From assembly GCA_003604975.1 (NCBI GenBank), contig QZIR01000016.1, positions 1 through 56,108 of the forward strand: DNA of 56,108 nucleotides, in the 5' to 3' direction. Position 1 is the first letter of the stretch. Every line of letters begins with the position of its first letter. This document shows positions 3,180 to 45,600 of this stretch, in pieces. A program made the position numbers and the translations under genes. Source of the stretch: Desulforudis sp. GTDB taxonomy: Bacteria; Bacillota; Desulfotomaculia; Desulfotomaculales; Desulforudaceae. A model generated the notes under the pieces. That model saw nothing but the letters and a program-made list of their open reading frames with translations. It was not told the DNA's origin and made no database searches.

Positions 3180-4502
3180 TCAATGGCGGGCGAGGTTCAC
3201 GAACCGCGTGAACTCCTTTAGGAAGGCCAGCTTGACCGTTCCGGTGGGACCGTTCCGCTGCTTGGCCACCACCAGTTCGGCAATCCCCTTTTCCTCTGTA
3301 TCCGCGTTGTAGTAATCCTCGCGGTAAATGAAGACGACCACATCGGCGTCCTGCTCCAGGCTGCCGCTCTCACGCAGGTCGGACATCTGGGGTCGCTTAT
3401 TGGGGCGGGACTCCACGGCCCGACTGAGCTGGGAGAGGGCCACCACTGGAACGTACAGTTCCTTGGCCAGACCCTTGAGAGCCCGGGAGATCTGGGCAAT
3501 TTCCTGTTGCCGGTTCTCCACGCGGGTGCCGGACTGCATCAGCTGGATGTAGTCGATGATCACCAGGCCCAGTCCCTTTTCCCCCTGCAGGCGCTTCGCC
3601 TTGGCGCGGATCTCGCGTACCGAGGCCCCCGCGGTATCGTCAATGTAGATGGGCAGATCACTCAGGTTGGCCGCCGCGTCGTGCAGGCACTCCCAGTCCT
3701 CCTCCCGCAGATTCCCGGTCCGCAGGCGGTACTGGTCCACTTTGGCCTCAATGCTCAACAACCGCTGGACAAGCTGCTCCTTGGCCATCTCCAGGCTGAA
3801 GACGGCCACCGGCGTCCGATCCTCCGAACTGGCCACCTGGTGGGCGATGCAAAGGGCGAGGGCCGTCTTGCCCATGCTCGGGCGGGCGGCCACGATCACC
3901 AGATCCGAAGGCTGCAGTCCGGCACAGAGGTTATCCAGGTCGATGAAACCGGTGGGTACCCCCGACAGGCGACCCTTGTTGGCGTATGCCTGTTCGATCG
4001 CACCCCACGTCTTCAATAGTACTTCCCTTAGTTGCACAAAGGCCGCCGAACCACGCCGGGTACTCAGTTCCAGGATCATCTGTTCGGCCTGGTCGAGCAG
4101 GCGGGGCGCTTCATCGTTCTCCTCGTAACTCATTTCCGCGATCCGGCCGGCCACCAGAATGAGGGTACGCAACAGCGCCTTCTCTTCCACAATCCGGGCG
4201 TATTGTTCTACGTTGGCCGTCGTGGGTACCAGGTCGGTCAGCGAGGCAATATAGGTCGCCCCGCCCGCCTTTTCAAGCAGGCCTTCCCGCCGCAACTGGT
4301 CGGTTACCGTGACCAGGTCCACGGGCTGCCCGGCATCCTGTAGGCGAAGGGCGGCTTCGTATATCAACCGGTTAGCAGAGTGGTAAAAATTATCCGGTTT
4401 GAGGATGGAGACCACCCGGTAGATGACGTCCGGGTCCAAAAGCAAGGCGCCGAGCACCGCTTGCTCGGCGTCCAGGTTTTGCGGGGGAATCCGGTCAAGC
4501 AT
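3180..4502 (-). CDS. dnaB: replicative DNA helicase DnaB
   Basis: Hexameric 5'-3' helicase of the replication fork (DnaC in Bacillus naming), loaded at the origin after DnaA opens it. The protein has the N-terminal primase-interacting domain (residues 10-110) and a RecA-type core with Walker A ARPSMGKT at 206-213. A VIIDYIQLM Walker B motif and an SQLSRAVE-type segment near the DNA-binding loops follow. The ATG at 4502 gives the canonical N-terminus (LDRIPPQNLDAEQAVLGALL) and overlaps the rplI stop in the string ATGCTTGA, implying translational coupling. A longer reading frame starting at 4577 lies inside rplI and is rejected. No intein is present. Confidence 0.97.
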   Translation of the reverse strand: MLDRIPPQNLDAEQAVLGALLLDPDVIYRVVSILKPDNFYHSANRLIYEAALRLQDAGQPVDLVTVTDQLRREGLLEKAGGATYIASLTDLVPTTANVEQYARIVEEKALLRTLILVAGRIAEMSYEENDEAPRLLDQAEQMILELSTRRGSAAFVQLREVLLKTWGAIEQAYANKGRLSGVPTGFIDLDNLCAGLQPSDLVIVAARPSMGKTALALCIAHQVASSEDRTPVAVFSLEMAKEQLVQRLLSIEAKVDQYRLRTGNLREEDWECLHDAAANLSDLPIYIDDTAGASVREIRAKAKRLQGEKGLGLVIIDYIQLMQSGTRVENRQQEIAQISRALKGLAKELYVPVVALSQLSRAVESRPNKRPQMSDLRESGSLEQDADVVVFIYREDYYNADTEEKGIAELVVAKQRNGPTGTVKLAFLKEFTRFVNLARH

Positions 4503-16359: not shown

Positions 16360-16677
16360 CTAAAGCCTGTAGCCTTCCTTCATTTTGATGTAGCGTTGAT
16401 AGGTTGGGGGGCTTAGTATAAAAAGAGGCGTCTCATCCAGAAGCGAGACCAGGGACTTCAGGGCCGGTCCCCGGGCCATCCACTGGCAGTAGTCCCGCCC
16501 GCCGTGATAATAGGGTCCGTACAGGCGCGATCCGGGCACCATTTCCAGCAGCCAACGGAAAAGGGCTTCATTGCGGGAGTGCATACGTACCGTAACATAA
16601 GGTTGCTTGCCGTCGCCTCCAAAATGCCCTTCTCCAATCAGTACCCCAACCAGCAATCCTTTTTCAAAATCGGTCAC
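16360..16677 (-). CDS. small LAGLIDADG-like protein
   Basis: A 105-residue protein whose N-terminus (FEKGLLVGVLIGEGHFGGDG) resembles a LAGLIDADG helix followed by the acidic glycine turn. The next part (YVTVRMHSRNEALFRWLLEMVPGSRLYGPY) continues like a LAGLIDADG endonuclease half-domain. It is a free-standing gene, not inside an intron or intein. With only one motif it would need to act as a dimer, if it cuts DNA at all. It lies between larC and the parS-like cluster; a DNA-binding role for this class is inference. Confidence 0.55.
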   Translation of the reverse strand: MTDFEKGLLVGVLIGEGHFGGDGKQPYVTVRMHSRNEALFRWLLEMVPGSRLYGPYYHGGRDYCQWMARGPALKSLVSLLDETPLFILSPPTYQRYIKMKEGYRL

Positions 16678-16693
16678 ACTACAGCACTCCTAT

Positions 16694-16722
16694 TGTTTCA
16701 CCGTGAGGATACACGTGAAACA
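16694..16722. repeat. split parS-like palindrome, copy 1
   Basis: TGTTTCAC and GTGAAACA, the two exact halves of the 16-bp parS consensus, are separated by 13 bp (CGTGAGGATACAC). Located downstream of parB, where chromosome-partition sites are expected. ParB binding is inferred. Confidence 0.6.
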
Positions 16723-16850
16723 CTACTCCCTCATTCCTAGTCGCGTCGCCCAAGCGGAACCATAACCATACTTTAACCAGCTGAACTACTTGCACCGCTT
16801 ACCCGTGAAAGGAAGGCATCTCCAGAAGAGATGACCGCTCTGCGCACGGT

Positions 16851-16879
16851 TGTTACACCGTTAGGTGACACGTGAAACA
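16851..16879. repeat. split parS-like palindrome, copy 2
   Basis: TGTTACAC (one mismatch to the left parS half) and GTGAAACA are separated by 13 bp (CGTTAGGTGACAC). The insert is similar to that of copy 1 (CGT-AGG----CAC). Confidence 0.6.
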
Positions 16880-16910
16880 TATGCTTTCCTTGACGCTCTG
16901 CTGGAACAAA

Positions 16911-16939
16911 TGTTTCACCGTCAAGTATCACGTGAAACC
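16911..16939. repeat. split parS-like palindrome, copy 3
   Basis: TGTTTCAC and GTGAAACC (one mismatch) are separated by 13 bp (CGTCAAGTATCAC). It lies 31 bp after copy 2 and about 50 bp before the parB stop. Confidence 0.6.
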
Positions 16940-16987: not shown

Positions 16988-17839
16988 CTACTTATCCAGC
17001 AGGGCGCGTATAAGTCGCTCAAGGTCTTCGGCGCTGCGGTAGCGGATCTCAATACGGCCCTTTTCCGGAGTGCCTTTAATCGCTACCTTCGTCCCTAGAA
17101 ACCTGGCTGCCTCTTTAGCCAGCCCGTTGAGGTGCTGGTCAATCGCTGCCCGGGTCCGCTTGGAACCCCCTGCTGCAGGATCCTTCTCGCCCGCAAGCCT
17201 GACCGCCTCCTCCAGACCCCGTACCGAAAGTCCGGCGGCAACCGTCTTCTGCGCCAGTTCCACCTGCTTGGCGGCATTCTCCAGTCCGGCCAGAGTTCGG
17301 GCGTGTCCGGCGGTAAGCAGCCCTCCCCCGACCATCTCCTGGACCTGGAGGGGAAGGGAGAGCAGACGCAGGGCATTCGTAACCGCGGACCGGCTCTTGC
17401 CCACCCGCCGGGCGACGTCTTCCTGAGTAATCTCATGCTCCTCAATCAGGCGGCGATAGGCGGTGGCTTCCTCCAGCGGGTTGAGGTCTTCGCGCTGGAT
17501 GTTTTCGATAAGGACGGCAGCAGCCACTTCCTGGTCTTTCATATCCCTGATCAGGGCGGGGATCAACGTACGGCCAAGCTGTTTAAAGGCCCTGAGCCTG
17601 CGTTCGCCGGACACCAGTTCATAACCCCGTCCCACCTTACGCACTACCACGGGTTGCACCAGTCCGACCTCTTCGATAGAGGCCGCCAGCTCATCCAGTG
17701 CTCCCTGTTCAAAGACTAGCCTGGCCTGGCGGGAGTTCGGCCGGATATCCTTTACGGGAATTTCCTTAAGGATTTCCTTATCCTCACCGGTCGGTAACAG
17801 GGCACCCAGCCCCCTGCCCAGCGCACGTTTCTTACTCAT
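16988..17839 (-). CDS. parB: chromosome-partitioning protein ParB/Spo0J
   Basis: Centromere-binding CTPase that loads at parS sites and spreads, working with ParA/Soj. From ATG 17839 the protein has 283 residues. It begins SKKRALGRGLGALLP, the ParA-stimulating basic N-terminus. The CTP-binding region (LVSGERRLRAF, then ENIQREDLNPLEEA) and the central helix-turn-helix (ITQEDVARRVGKSRSAVTNALRLL) follow. Its ATG overlaps the parA stop by eight bases (ATGAGTAA). An open frame further upstream lies inside parA and is rejected. The unusual 29-bp sites lie just downstream. Confidence 0.96.
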   Translation of the reverse strand: MSKKRALGRGLGALLPTGEDKEILKEIPVKDIRPNSRQARLVFEQGALDELAASIEEVGLVQPVVVRKVGRGYELVSGERRLRAFKQLGRTLIPALIRDMKDQEVAAAVLIENIQREDLNPLEEATAYRRLIEEHEITQEDVARRVGKSRSAVTNALRLLSLPLQVQEMVGGGLLTAGHARTLAGLENAAKQVELAQKTVAAGLSVRGLEEAVRLAGEKDPAAGGSKRTRAAIDQHLNGLAKEAARFLGTKVAIKGTPEKGRIEIRYRSAEDLERLIRALLDK

Positions 17840-18596
17840 TCGCTGCCACTTCCTTTGCCAGTTCGCGGTACACCTCCGCCCCACGACACCTTGGATCATA
17901 TACGACAACCGGTTTACCGTAACTGGGAGCCTCCCCGAGACGCACGTTGCGGGGGATAACCGTTCCATAAACCAGTTTCTTAAAATGCCGTTTGACCTCA
18001 TCCACTACCTGGATGGAAAGGTTGGTACGTCCGTCGAACATCGTAAGCAGCACTCCCTCGATCTCCAGGCCGGGATTGAGCTGGCGCTGCACCAGTTGGA
18101 TCGCGTTCATCAGGTGGCCTAGTCCTTCCAGTGCATAGTATTCACACTGCAGAGGGACAATCACGGAATCGGCCGCTGTCAGTGCGTTTACTGTGAGCAG
18201 CCCGAGGGAGGGGGGGCAGTCCATCAGGACGTAGTCATACTTGTCCCGCACCGGGGCCAGGGCCCGCTTGAGAATAGATTCCCGCCCGGGAATGCCGACC
18301 ATCTCAATCTCGGCGCCGGCCAGCCGGAGGGTGGCAGGAATCACATTCATACCGGGTACACATTCACAGGGGCGAAGTACGGCGGGCAAATCCCGCTTTC
18401 CGATCAGAACATCATAAATACACTCTTCAATCTTATTACGGTCGAACCCGACCCCGCTGCTGGCGTTACCCTGTGGGTCGATGTCGACCAGCAAAACCCG
18501 CTTGCCGTCAAGCGCCAGGGCCGCCCCCAGATTAACCGCGGTTGTTGTTTTGGCGACACCGCCCTTCTGGTTGGTAATCGCGATAACCCGTCCCAA
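17832..18596 (-). CDS. parA: ParA/Soj family ATPase
   Basis: Deviant-Walker ATPase that drives chromosome-origin segregation with ParB and, in Bacillus, modulates DnaA and sporulation. The P-loop is KGGVAKTT, near the N-terminus in GRVIAITNQKGGVAKTTTAVNL; DIDPQGN and DCPPSLGLLTVNAL follow. The TTG at 18596 gives the family-standard M-G-R-V-I-A-I-T-N-Q start and lies five bases after AGGTGA. A GTG nine bases upstream, after AAGGAG, is the alternative. The frame is open much further upstream, but that part shows no homology. Stop overlaps parB. Confidence 0.94.
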   Translation of the reverse strand: MGRVIAITNQKGGVAKTTTAVNLGAALALDGKRVLLVDIDPQGNASSGVGFDRNKIEECIYDVLIGKRDLPAVLRPCECVPGMNVIPATLRLAGAEIEMVGIPGRESILKRALAPVRDKYDYVLMDCPPSLGLLTVNALTAADSVIVPLQCEYYALEGLGHLMNAIQLVQRQLNPGLEIEGVLLTMFDGRTNLSIQVVDEVKRHFKKLVYGTVIPRNVRLGEAPSYGKPVVVYDPRCRGAEVYRELAKEVAANE

Positions 18597-18705
18597 ATAA
18601 TTCACCTGCTCCTTACGGCATCCGAGCATGACACTGTGAGCATTCCAGGAACCTGCCCCGTTTGTACACATGCACTGTACCTTACCATTGGATTTCCACA
18701 CCAGC

Positions 18706-25313: not shown

Positions 25314-25364
25314 CTCTGTTGATATCCATGTTGATGAGTGACAATTTTTCCGCAGGAGGAGACT

Positions 25365-26702
25365 ATGGTCCCATCAGAAATAAGCGAGGTATGGAGCCAG
25401 GTTCTGGCGCATCTGGAACGCCAAATGACCAAACAATCCTTTGATCACTGGCTCAAACCTTTAAAACCGATCGCCTATCATAACGGGACCCTCCTGATCG
25501 AAGTCCCGAATCATTTTTCCCGGGACTGGTTGTCTGACCGTTACGCCCCGCTGATTAAGCAGTCCTTCAGCCAGTTGAGTAGAAAGGACACTGCGCTTCG
25601 TTTCCTTTTATCGCGCGAAGTGCCGGAAATAATGGCCTACTTATCCCAAAGGCCTGTTGAAAAATCTGGGGATACGGTCAGGAACCTCAATCCCAAGTAC
25701 GTGTTTGACTCATTCGTCGTGGGCAACTCCAACCGCTTTGCGCACGCCGCATCGTACGCTGTGGCCGAGGCACCGGCCAAGGCCTACAACCCCCTGTTTC
25801 TATACGGCGGTGTGGGACTGGGCAAGACGCATCTGATGCACGCCATCGGCCACCTGACCCTGGCCAACAACCCCGGCCTGAAGGTGGCCTACGTCACGTC
25901 CGAAAAGTTTACGAATGAGCTGATCAACTCCATTAAAGACGACCAGATGGTGCAGTTCAGGTATCGATACCGGAACATCGACATCCTGCTGATCGACGAC
26001 ATCCAGTTCCTGGCCGGAAAGGAACGGACCCAGGAAGAGTTTTTCCACACTTTCAACACCCTGTACGAGGCCGCCAAGCAGATCGTGATCTCCAGCGACC
26101 GGCCGCCCAAGGAAATCCCCACCCTGGAGGAAAGACTCCGCTCCCGTTTCGAGTGGGGCCTGATTTCCGATATCCAACCGCCTGACCTCGAAACCAGAAT
26201 CGCTATCCTGCGCAAAAAAGCGCAGCTTGAGAATACCAATGTTCCTGATGAAACCCTGTTCTACATCGCTGACCGCATCCCCTCAAACATCCGTGAATTG
26301 GAGGGGGCCTTTATCCGCGTGGCCGCTTACGCTTCCCTGACCAACTGTGAGATCAATCCGGAAATGGCGGCCGAAGTCTTAAAAAACATCATCCAGCCGG
26401 TCAAACCCCGGCAGATTGACTGCCGGCTGATCCAGGATATCGTCGGCCAGTATTTTAGCATGCGCCTTGAGGATTTTAAGGCTAAGAAAAGAACCCGGGC
26501 CGTTGCCTATCCGCGGCAGATCGCCATGTACCTGACTCGTGAACTCACCGACCTTTCCCTGCCGCAAATCGGTGAAGAGTTTGGCGGCCGTGATCACACC
26601 ACGGTTATCCACGCCTGTGATAAGATCGCGCAGGAGTTGCGCGAGGATCCAATGGTTCAGGAAATTATCAACGAGTTAATCAGTCGCGTGAACAAACCAT
26701 AA
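25365..26702 (+). CDS. dnaA: chromosomal replication initiator DnaA
   Basis: AAA+ initiator that binds DnaA boxes and opens oriC. From ATG 25365 (AGGAGG upstream) it has 445 residues. Domain I is [25 protein letters not shown]. The Walker A motif is [16 protein letters not shown] and Walker B is [27 protein letters not shown]-terminal helix-turn-helix ends [15 protein letters not shown] start nine codons upstream (25338) lacks a ribosome site. Followed by dnaN after 153 bp. Confidence 0.97.
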
Positions 26703-42693: not shown

Positions 42694-45600
42694 ATGGAGA
42701 TATTCGATAATGTAACAAGAATCGTCAAAGATGATTTAGCAGCCACAATCAAAAAGGGCAGCCGCCTTTCAATAGCTGCTGCCTGTTTTTCTATATATGC
42801 TTATCAGGTGTTAAAAAAGCAACTCGATTACGTGGATGAGTTGCGTTTTATCTTTACATCGCCTGCATTTGTTTCCGAAAAAGCGCCTAAAGAAAAACGT
42901 GAATTTTATATCCCGCGTCTCAACCGCGAGCGCAGCCTTTACGGAACGGAGTTTGAAGTAAAGCTGCGTAACGAACTGACTCAAAAAGCGATTGCCCGCG
43001 AATGCGCTGATTGGATTCGTAAAAAGGTTGCGTTTAAATCAAATACCACGCCGGAAAATATGGGGGGCTTCCTCAACATAGAGTCCGGCAGTGAACAGAT
43101 TACATATATGCCGCTCGGCGGTTTTACCACTGTTGATATTGGATGCGAACGGGGAAATAACAGCTACAACATGGTTACCAAGTTTCCAGCACCACATAGC
43201 CAGGAATTCACCCGGTTGTTTGAGAGTGTCTGGAACGACAAAACGAAATTACAGGATGTGACAGAAGAGGTCATAGACAGCATCACCGCCGCCTATAATG
43301 AAAACTCAGCGGAGTTTCTTTATTTCGTGGCTCTTTACAATATATTCAATGAATTCCTCGAAGACATATCCGAGGATGTGCTTCCCAACGAAGCGACCGG
43401 ATTTAAAGAGAGTAAAATCTGGAGTATGTTATATGATTTCCAAAAGGATGCGGCACTTGCTGTTATCAATAAGCTCGAAAAATACAACGGTTGCATCCTT
43501 GCAGATAGCGTAGGACTTGGAAAGACCTTTACTGCTCTTTCTGTTGTCAAGTACTACGAAAACAGGAATAAATCTGTTCTTGTGTTATGCCCCAAAAAAC
43601 TCACTGACAACTGGAATACATACAAAGATAACTATATAAACAACCCCATTGCCGCAGACCGGCTGCGCTATGATGTTCTCTATCACACTGACCTGTCCAG
43701 AAACCACGGCAAGTCAAACGGACTGGACTTAGACCGTCTGAACTGGGGCAATTATGACCTCATCGTTATCGATGAATCGCACAATTTTCGCAATGGCGGC
43801 GAGGTTTACGGGGATGATGCACGGGAAAACCGTTATCTCCGGCTTTTAAACAAGGTGATTCGTCCGGGTGTAAAGACAAAGGTGCTCATGCTGTCTGCAA
43901 CGCCGGTAAATAACCGCTTTGTAGACTTGCGCAACCAGCTTGCACTTGCCTATGAGGGCAATTCCAGCCTGATAAATGAAAAGTTGAACACATCGAAACC
44001 AATTGATGAGATTTTCCGTAATGCGCAAAGAGCGTTTAATATCTGGAGTAATATGGAGCCGGAAAAAAGAACAACGGCGACACTATTGAAAATGCTGGAT
44101 TTTGACTTCTTTGAAGTACTGGACAGTGTGACCATTGCGCGTTCACGTAAGCATATTGAAAAGTATTACAACATGGACGAAATCGGTAAATTCCCCGAAA
44201 GGCTCAAGCCTCTGTCTCTGCGGCCGAGCCTGACCGATTTGAGCAATGCCATCAATTATAACCAGATATATGATGAGCTTATGAAGTTGAATCTCTCGGT
44301 TTACATACCAACAGACTTCGTCTTTGAGAGCAGACGGGACAAGTATGTCGACCCCGACGTCAATATCAACCGTGCCGGGCGTGAGCAGGGTATCCGCCGG
44401 CTGATGAGCATCAACCTTTTGAAACGGTTGGAAAGCTCCGTCTATTCCTTCCGCCTGACTCTCCAACGCATAAAGAAGCTGATTGATGATACAATTGCTG
44501 AAATTGATAGATTTGAGGCTGGTGATGATGCTGATATCGAGATGTCTGATTTCAGCGAGGATACCGATTTCGATTATGATGATCAGAATACCGACTTTTT
44601 CACCTCCGGCAGACGAGTAAAAATCAACCTTAACGACATGGACTATGTTACCTGGCGTGCCACTCTTCAACAAGACTCAGACGTATTGGAGCTGCTGACG
44701 CTTATGGTCGCCGACATCACGCCGGAGCATGATACCAAGCTGCAGACCCTGCTGCGTCTGATCTCGGATAAAATAGACCATCCCATTAACGAGGACAATA
44801 AAAAAGTTCTCGTATTTTCAGCATTTTCTGATACTGCCGAATACCTGTACCAGAATGTGAGCGGGTTTATAAAGGACAAATATGGGCTTAACACCGCTAT
44901 GATAACCGGCACGGTGGATGGGAAGACAACGATCCCGAAATTCAGGGCGACCTTCAATAATGTTCTGACTTGTTTTTCACCTGTTTCTAAAGATAAAGCG
45001 CTGCTTATGCCCGATTCAACCGACCGTATTGACATCCTCATAGCCACAGATTGCATTTCCGAAGGTCAAAACCTCCAGGATTGTGATTACCTCGTTAACT
45101 ACGATATTCACTGGAATCCTGTCCGCATCATCCAGCGGTTCGGACGTATTGACCGTATCGGCAGCCGGAATGCGCGGATACAGCTTGTGAACTTCTGGCC
45201 GGATTTGACGCTGGACGATTATATCAACCTAAAAAGCCGTGTGGAAACCCGCATGAAAATATCCGTCATGACTTCCACCGGAGATGACGACCTTATCAAT
45301 GCGGAGGAAAAGGGCGACCTTGAATACCGCAAGGCACAGCTCAAGCGCCTGCAAGAGGAAGTCGTCGACATCGAGGATATGTCCACAGGTATTTCCATTA
45401 TGGACTTAGGATTGAATGAATTTCGCCTTGACCTGCTTGATTACATCAAGAATAACGGTGATTTGGACAAGACCCCTTTCGGCCTCCATGCGGTTGTTCC
45501 CGCGAAGGACGATGCGCCTCCCGGCGCGATATTTGTATTGAAAAACATCAACGGCAGTGTGAATATCGACAACCAGAACCGCCTCCACCCGTTCTATATG

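Follow-up and report, generated by a model that had tools for sequence, protein, structure and literature searches.

Split parS sites in the par locus of Desulforudis sp.

The par locus of Desulforudis sp. raises the question of how a chromosome is marked for segregation when the two halves of its centromere site, parS, stand apart. In the 56,108-nucleotide stretch analysed here (contig QZIR01000016.1; the window), three 29-mers of the architecture TGTTTCAC-N13-GTGAAACA, with standard ParB half-sites as arms, lie in a 310-bp gap that has parB (minus strand) on one side and an open reading frame (ORF) of 105 amino acids on the other. As judged from genome sequence comparisons, this split site and the adjoining gene, which encodes a LAGLIDADG protein, are linked one-to-one, and several unrelated lineages have this pair instead of contiguous parS. 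The sites are as follows.

16694..16722, plus strand: split parS site 1, TGTTTCACCGTGAGGATACACGTGAAACA, 0 mismatches, 16 bp upstream of the start codon of the LAGLIDADG gene
16851..16879, plus strand: split parS site 2, TGTTACACCGTTAGGTGACACGTGAAACA, 1 mismatch
16911..16939, plus strand: split parS site 3, TGTTTCACCGTCAAGTATCACGTGAAACC, 1 mismatch

A sequence-only reading of this stretch had described three split sites with at most one half-site mismatch each, an insert whose core (CGT-A-G----CAC) is kept among them, and the lack of an uninterrupted 16-bp parS in the window. All three descriptions hold: none of 100 shuffles reached the observed three sites (mean expectation 0.16), the core is common to the three, and no contiguous 16-bp parS with fewer than three mismatches lies within the window. 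In the whole 3.14-Mb genome (99.4% complete), which is placed with Desulforudis on the 86% identity of its ParB to that of Desulforudis sp. J_13, these sites are the only 29-mers at two or fewer mismatches, and there is no contiguous parS at one or fewer, so that the plentiful normal parS that might have been present elsewhere was not found. On the other hand, the suggestion that the half-sites face different sides of the helix was mistaken, because 21 bp, or about two helical turns, separate their centres, which puts them on the same side. The sites belong to the rsmG-parA-parB region, with dnaA about 8 kb away, and neither a tRNA nor an Rfam RNA was found in the intergenic region.

The 29-mer can also be read as a parS with an extra half-site 13 bp upstream, and in many relatives its positions 14-29 are still parS-like (NGTTTCACGTGAAACA). 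That the motif is merely a parS with an added half-site fits several relatives; this was rejected, because Solirubrobacterales lack the middle half-site and in the Desulforudis window it has decayed. The constant features of the motif are the outer arms and their fixed spacing. In one family (f17, e.g. L051 and L055) an intact 14-bp parS core, GTTTCACGTGAAAC, lies inside the 29-mer, so that parS and an extra half-site coexist; this arrangement is possibly an evolutionary intermediate, and such near-complete cores in the right part of some 29-mers make the term 'split' a matter of degree.

The adjoining gene encodes a protein of the LAGLIDADG fold

The ORF next to site 1, which the sequence-only reading had overlooked, has the following features.

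16363..16677, minus strand: gene of a 105-amino-acid protein with a single LAGLIDADG domain and a GTG start (AlphaFold2 fold, PDB matches and co-occurrence; proposed to bind the site centre)
16686..16691, minus strand: likely ribosome-binding site of this gene, AGGAGT, read from the sequence, between the start codon and site 1

The window copy of the protein gave zero matches in Pfam, NCBIfam and PHROGs. A sequence-profile search of the PDB returned no meaningful match either, and for this reason a fold search was needed. The AlphaFold2 model (predicted local distance difference test, 97.5) consists of one LAGLIDADG domain with an alpha-beta-beta-alpha-beta-beta-alpha order, and its matches in the PDB were LAGLIDADG homing endonucleases throughout, with Z-scores up to 12.7 (I-AniI 12.2, I-CreI 11.6, I-MsoI 11.3). 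Among the homologues, 13 of 47 matched Pfam LAGLIDADG_3 weakly (best E-value 0.0029). The family is strongly conserved across phyla (GEGHFGGDGRQPQVTLRMH...LYGPYxHGGRxYYQWMARG), and the acidic residue that closes the LAGLIDADG helix (E16) is kept in 75 of 76 homologues. The one homologue without it, from Ammonifex sp. Tomsk_66_11 (L126, 4212-4541, minus strand), has AVGHF in place of GEGHF and is either a natural catalytic-site variant or an assembly error. No match to the gene was found on plasmids or phages.

Co-occurrence of the gene and the split site

When about 85,000 species genomes were scanned with a pattern that fixed the arms and some core positions (20 bases in all), 83 stretches matched; we estimate that chance would give about 0.5 (20 bases in 257 Gb, both strands). 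These stretches span Bacillota, Actinomycetota (mostly Solirubrobacterales and Acidimicrobiales), Deinococcota, Chloroflexota, Acidobacteriota, Armatimonadota, Planctomycetota and others. In most of the loci selected in this way, homologues of the 105-amino-acid ORF directly adjoin the split site, and 86 of 93 sites lie just upstream of the gene, tens of base pairs away and in one fixed orientation; the loci without the gene include phage contigs and contigs that end near the site.

As these loci had been chosen by the site, the search was redone by protein in three groups, which served as an unbiased test. In the class of the Desulforudis genome (113 genomes) the gene was found in 25 genomes, identical to the 25 that carry the extended motif TGTTTCACCGTCANGTNNCACGTGAAACA. 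Within Thermaceae it was present in 8 of 50 genomes; each of the 8 had a split site with 13-bp spacing next to the gene, and no split site was found in the 42 gene-negative genomes. The order of Conexibacter gave 22 gene-positive genomes out of 121, all with an adjoining 13-bp split site (20 with exact arms), and an exact-arm split site in none of the 99 gene-negative ones. Taken together, a split site of 13-bp spacing adjoins the gene in 55 of 55 gene-positive genomes, and site scans of the gene-negative genomes found one in 0 of 229, with three mismatches allowed in the class and exact arms only in Thermaceae and Conexibacter's order, where degenerate sites would be missed. The association of the split site with the LAGLIDADG gene is firm.

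The geometry was equally constant. In 33 genomes found by protein, all 23 pairs of exact half-sites between 0 and 60 bp apart had the 13-bp spacing. Within the 29-mers, conservation amounts to about 2 bits at each arm position and about 1.5 bits for the CGT at positions 9-11, GT at positions 15-16 is strongly conserved, and A13 is invariant (47/47, class and Thermaceae).

Contiguous parS in gene-positive and gene-negative genomes

Gene-positive genomes have practically no contiguous parS; in two groups it is common among their gene-negative relatives. It was found, at one mismatch or fewer, in 72 of the 88 gene-negative genomes of the class, most of which have a perfect, isolated 16-bp parS with no extra half-site. 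In the 25 gene-positive genomes of the class it occurred only within 29-mers (four genomes) and at one site in G086. In Thermaceae a contiguous site was present in 0 of 8 gene-positive vs 28 of 42 gene-negative genomes, and of 41 genomes with the 29-mer, drawn from many phyla, none had a contiguous parS outside it. In Conexibacter's order an exact contiguous site was present in only 6 gene-negative genomes, which makes this group a weak test of mutual exclusion.

G086 (L113, L166) is the sole gene-positive genome of the class with a contiguous match outside the 29-mer; its 29-mer is two mismatches from parS, and the match therefore lies elsewhere. This genome is metagenome-assembled, its contig was deposited under the name Armatimonadetes, and a long branch leads to its ParB. 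In the Desulforudis genome, the nearest approaches to a contiguous parS include two copies of the parS-like TGTTTCACGTGCAACC (two mismatches), 446 bp apart (G000:C16:44958-44973 and 45404-45419; L006, L007). A perfect palindrome, TATTTCACGTGAAATA, also two mismatches from parS, occurs twice (G000:C27:12369-12384 and G000:C30:25760-25775).

ParB and the exchange of sites in Thermaceae

The remaining genes of the locus are those of a chromosomal ParABS system.

16988..17839, minus strand: parB, with ParB_N, HTH_ParB and ParB_C domains and with parS-contact and cytidine triphosphate (CTP) motifs intact (domain and residue check)
17832..18629, minus strand: parA, start codon uncertain (annotation)
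25338..26702, plus strand: dnaA, which marks the origin region (annotation)

The N-terminal, helix-turn-helix (HTH) and C-terminal dimerisation domains of ParB are all present in the window, and parA and parB are adjacent and near dnaA/oriC. What is missing from the genome is a contiguous 16-bp parS near the origin, in whose place the split sites are found. The window ParB has all the residues reported to contact parS, namely Q162, G170, K171, S172, R173, N178, G201 and R204 (PMC7383237); in the same numbering, R173, N178, G201 and R204 are invariant in 53 gene-positive ParBs. Every residue checked was identical between the ParBs of gene-positive and gene-negative Thermaceae, and it is therefore very likely that ParB still reads the TGTTTCAC arms. 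An altered DNA specificity of ParB had been considered, since the recognition helix differs with the presence of the gene in a mixed set of genomes; that comparison is confounded by phylogeny, the difference is gone within Thermaceae, and the idea was rejected.

The two states occupy the same gap in this family. In gene-negative Thermaceae, among them Thermus, Meiothermus-type genomes and G157, a single contiguous parS lies between mnmG and rsmG, and in gene-positive members this gap holds the LAGLIDADG gene and split sites. The ParBs of G157, with its contiguous site, and of G163, with the gene and split sites, are sisters, and on the ParB tree the state of the site switches about six times, at least four of them on well-supported branches. 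A supposedly broken LAGLIDADG copy in G163 ('1 TAG') was dismissed, as the TAG is its normal stop codon.

Split sites in phage contigs

The split-parS 29-mer was also seen in phage contigs (L154 at 3503-3531, minus strand, and L151, L152, L153 and L155). One carrier is of filamentous type, with M13 protein I and a Zot-like ORF, and the others are tailed-phage contigs, one with a terminase gene. No parA, parB or LAGLIDADG gene was found in the phage stretches read. These phages may borrow the centromere of their host.

A proposed two-protein reading of the centromere and its alternatives

We consider it probable that the locus is a ParABS variant that divides the reading of the site, with ParB on the arms and the LAGLIDADG protein on the centre, the two jointly replacing parS. 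The three 29-mers would then constitute a variant chromosomal centromere. The 13-bp centre would be bound by the LAGLIDADG protein, which probably forms a homodimer, as other single-motif members of that fold do; the arms, 21 bp from each other on one helical face, would be read by the HTH domains of ParB. Together the two proteins would nucleate the ParB-CTP clamp, a task that normally falls to contiguous parS alone. Site 1 lies just upstream of the ribosome-binding site of the LAGLIDADG gene, so that binding there probably also represses the gene and would fix the level of the protein; from this promoter position, an autoregulatory role is likely. Of the possibilities raised by the sequence-only reading, binding of the centre by another protein is thus the one favoured, given that the LAGLIDADG-fold gene always accompanies the split site.

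Several observations weigh against this reading. The fixed position upstream of the gene is explicable by autoregulation alone, and the conserved acid would be superfluous in a pure DNA-binder. Gene-positive families f1 and f17 have a near-perfect contiguous parS core in the 29-mer, so their ParB might need no help. The centre of the 29-mer differs between lineages (Thermaceae, Solirubrobacterales), and its core is asymmetric, whereas the usual target of a homodimer is near-palindromic. In addition, genomes inside one group are not independent, and only four changes fall on well-supported branches of the ParB tree.

Of the alternatives, it is unlikely, if quite conceivable, that the protein is a regulator only, the 29-mer being an operator at which it competes with ParB for the arms and tunes its own gene and the par locus, while ParB loads alone. 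This would agree with the placement of one site next to the ribosome-binding site, tens of base pairs before the gene and in a constant orientation in most loci; it leaves unexplained the loss of contiguous parS from gene-positive genomes, the copies away from the promoter (sites 2 and 3 of the window) and the phage 29-mers with no gene nearby. We regard as improbable a selfish homing endonuclease that cuts contiguous parS, whose carriers convert every parS to an uncuttable split form and which spreads by homing into a conserved centromere. The fold with its conserved metal-binding acid, the mutual exclusion with contiguous parS and the scatter across phyla would all suit such an element; however, in the gene-positive f17, G006 and G007 the 29-mer retains a 14-bp parS core, or nearly one, that is uncut, a purely protective insert needs no fixed 13-bp length and core across phyla, and the gene stands beside the site, not inside it, and has no plasmid or phage match. 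A controlled enzyme that nicks or cuts at or near parS-type sequence during segregation, or polices which DNA carries a centromere, is a long shot. Finally, that ParB alone accepts split sites, with the gene linked by chance or common descent, is very improbable: the canonical CTP and parS-contact motifs and the two perfect half-sites would allow it, yet Thermaceae share those contact residues whichever type of site they have, none of the gene-negative genomes scanned showed a split site, gene and split site co-occur one-to-one in three groups with repeated switching, and of two sister ParBs that of G157 goes with a contiguous site and that of G163 with split sites, tracking the gene.

If the two-protein reading is true, the loading of the clamp can pass to a second, dedicated protein of the homing-endonuclease fold, at a natural centromere whose halves are 13 bp apart, and the split and contiguous states have been swapped in and out between close relatives. 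As both states occur in the same gap of closely related Thermaceae, the idea is directly testable. The finding suggests a route by which the fold of a selfish gene can enter a core process of the cell.

Comparison with known systems

In full-text searches, whose coverage leaves out most subscription papers and preprints, no description of a split chromosomal parS was found, and a search for LAGLIDADG together with parS and ParB returned only work on WhiA and Streptomyces development and an unrelated fungal genome. The data suggest a previously undescribed two-protein marking of chromosomes for inheritance in some bacteria of many phyla. The chromosomal ParABS systems of Bacillus subtilis, Caulobacter and Thermus share with it the parA and parB genes by oriC, the canonical ParB domains and contacts and identical half-sites; the Desulforudis type differs in having the half-sites 13 bp apart with a conserved core, and in its constant LAGLIDADG gene. 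WhiA (DUF199), the domesticated LAGLIDADG protein of Gram-positive bacteria, is likewise a bacterial LAGLIDADG fold with a non-homing role and a link to chromosome biology. It combines a degenerate LAGLIDADG domain without metal-binding residues with a DNA-binding C-terminal HTH (PMC3781837), whereas the 105-amino-acid family is a single domain that keeps the acid and has no HTH, and so does not qualify as WhiA. The single-motif homing endonucleases I-CreI and I-MsoI have the same fold, size class, likely homodimeric state and acid at the helix end; in contrast to them, no intron, intein or sign of mobility was found for the split-site family, which is conserved with the par locus and not within its own target. 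In parS of plasmid P1, integration host factor sits between the stretches that ParB binds. The P1 system belongs to a plasmid and has another class of ParB and other ParB boxes, and integration host factor is a general host factor with no dedicated linked gene; the likeness lies in a second DNA-binding protein within the centromere, as we propose for the split site.
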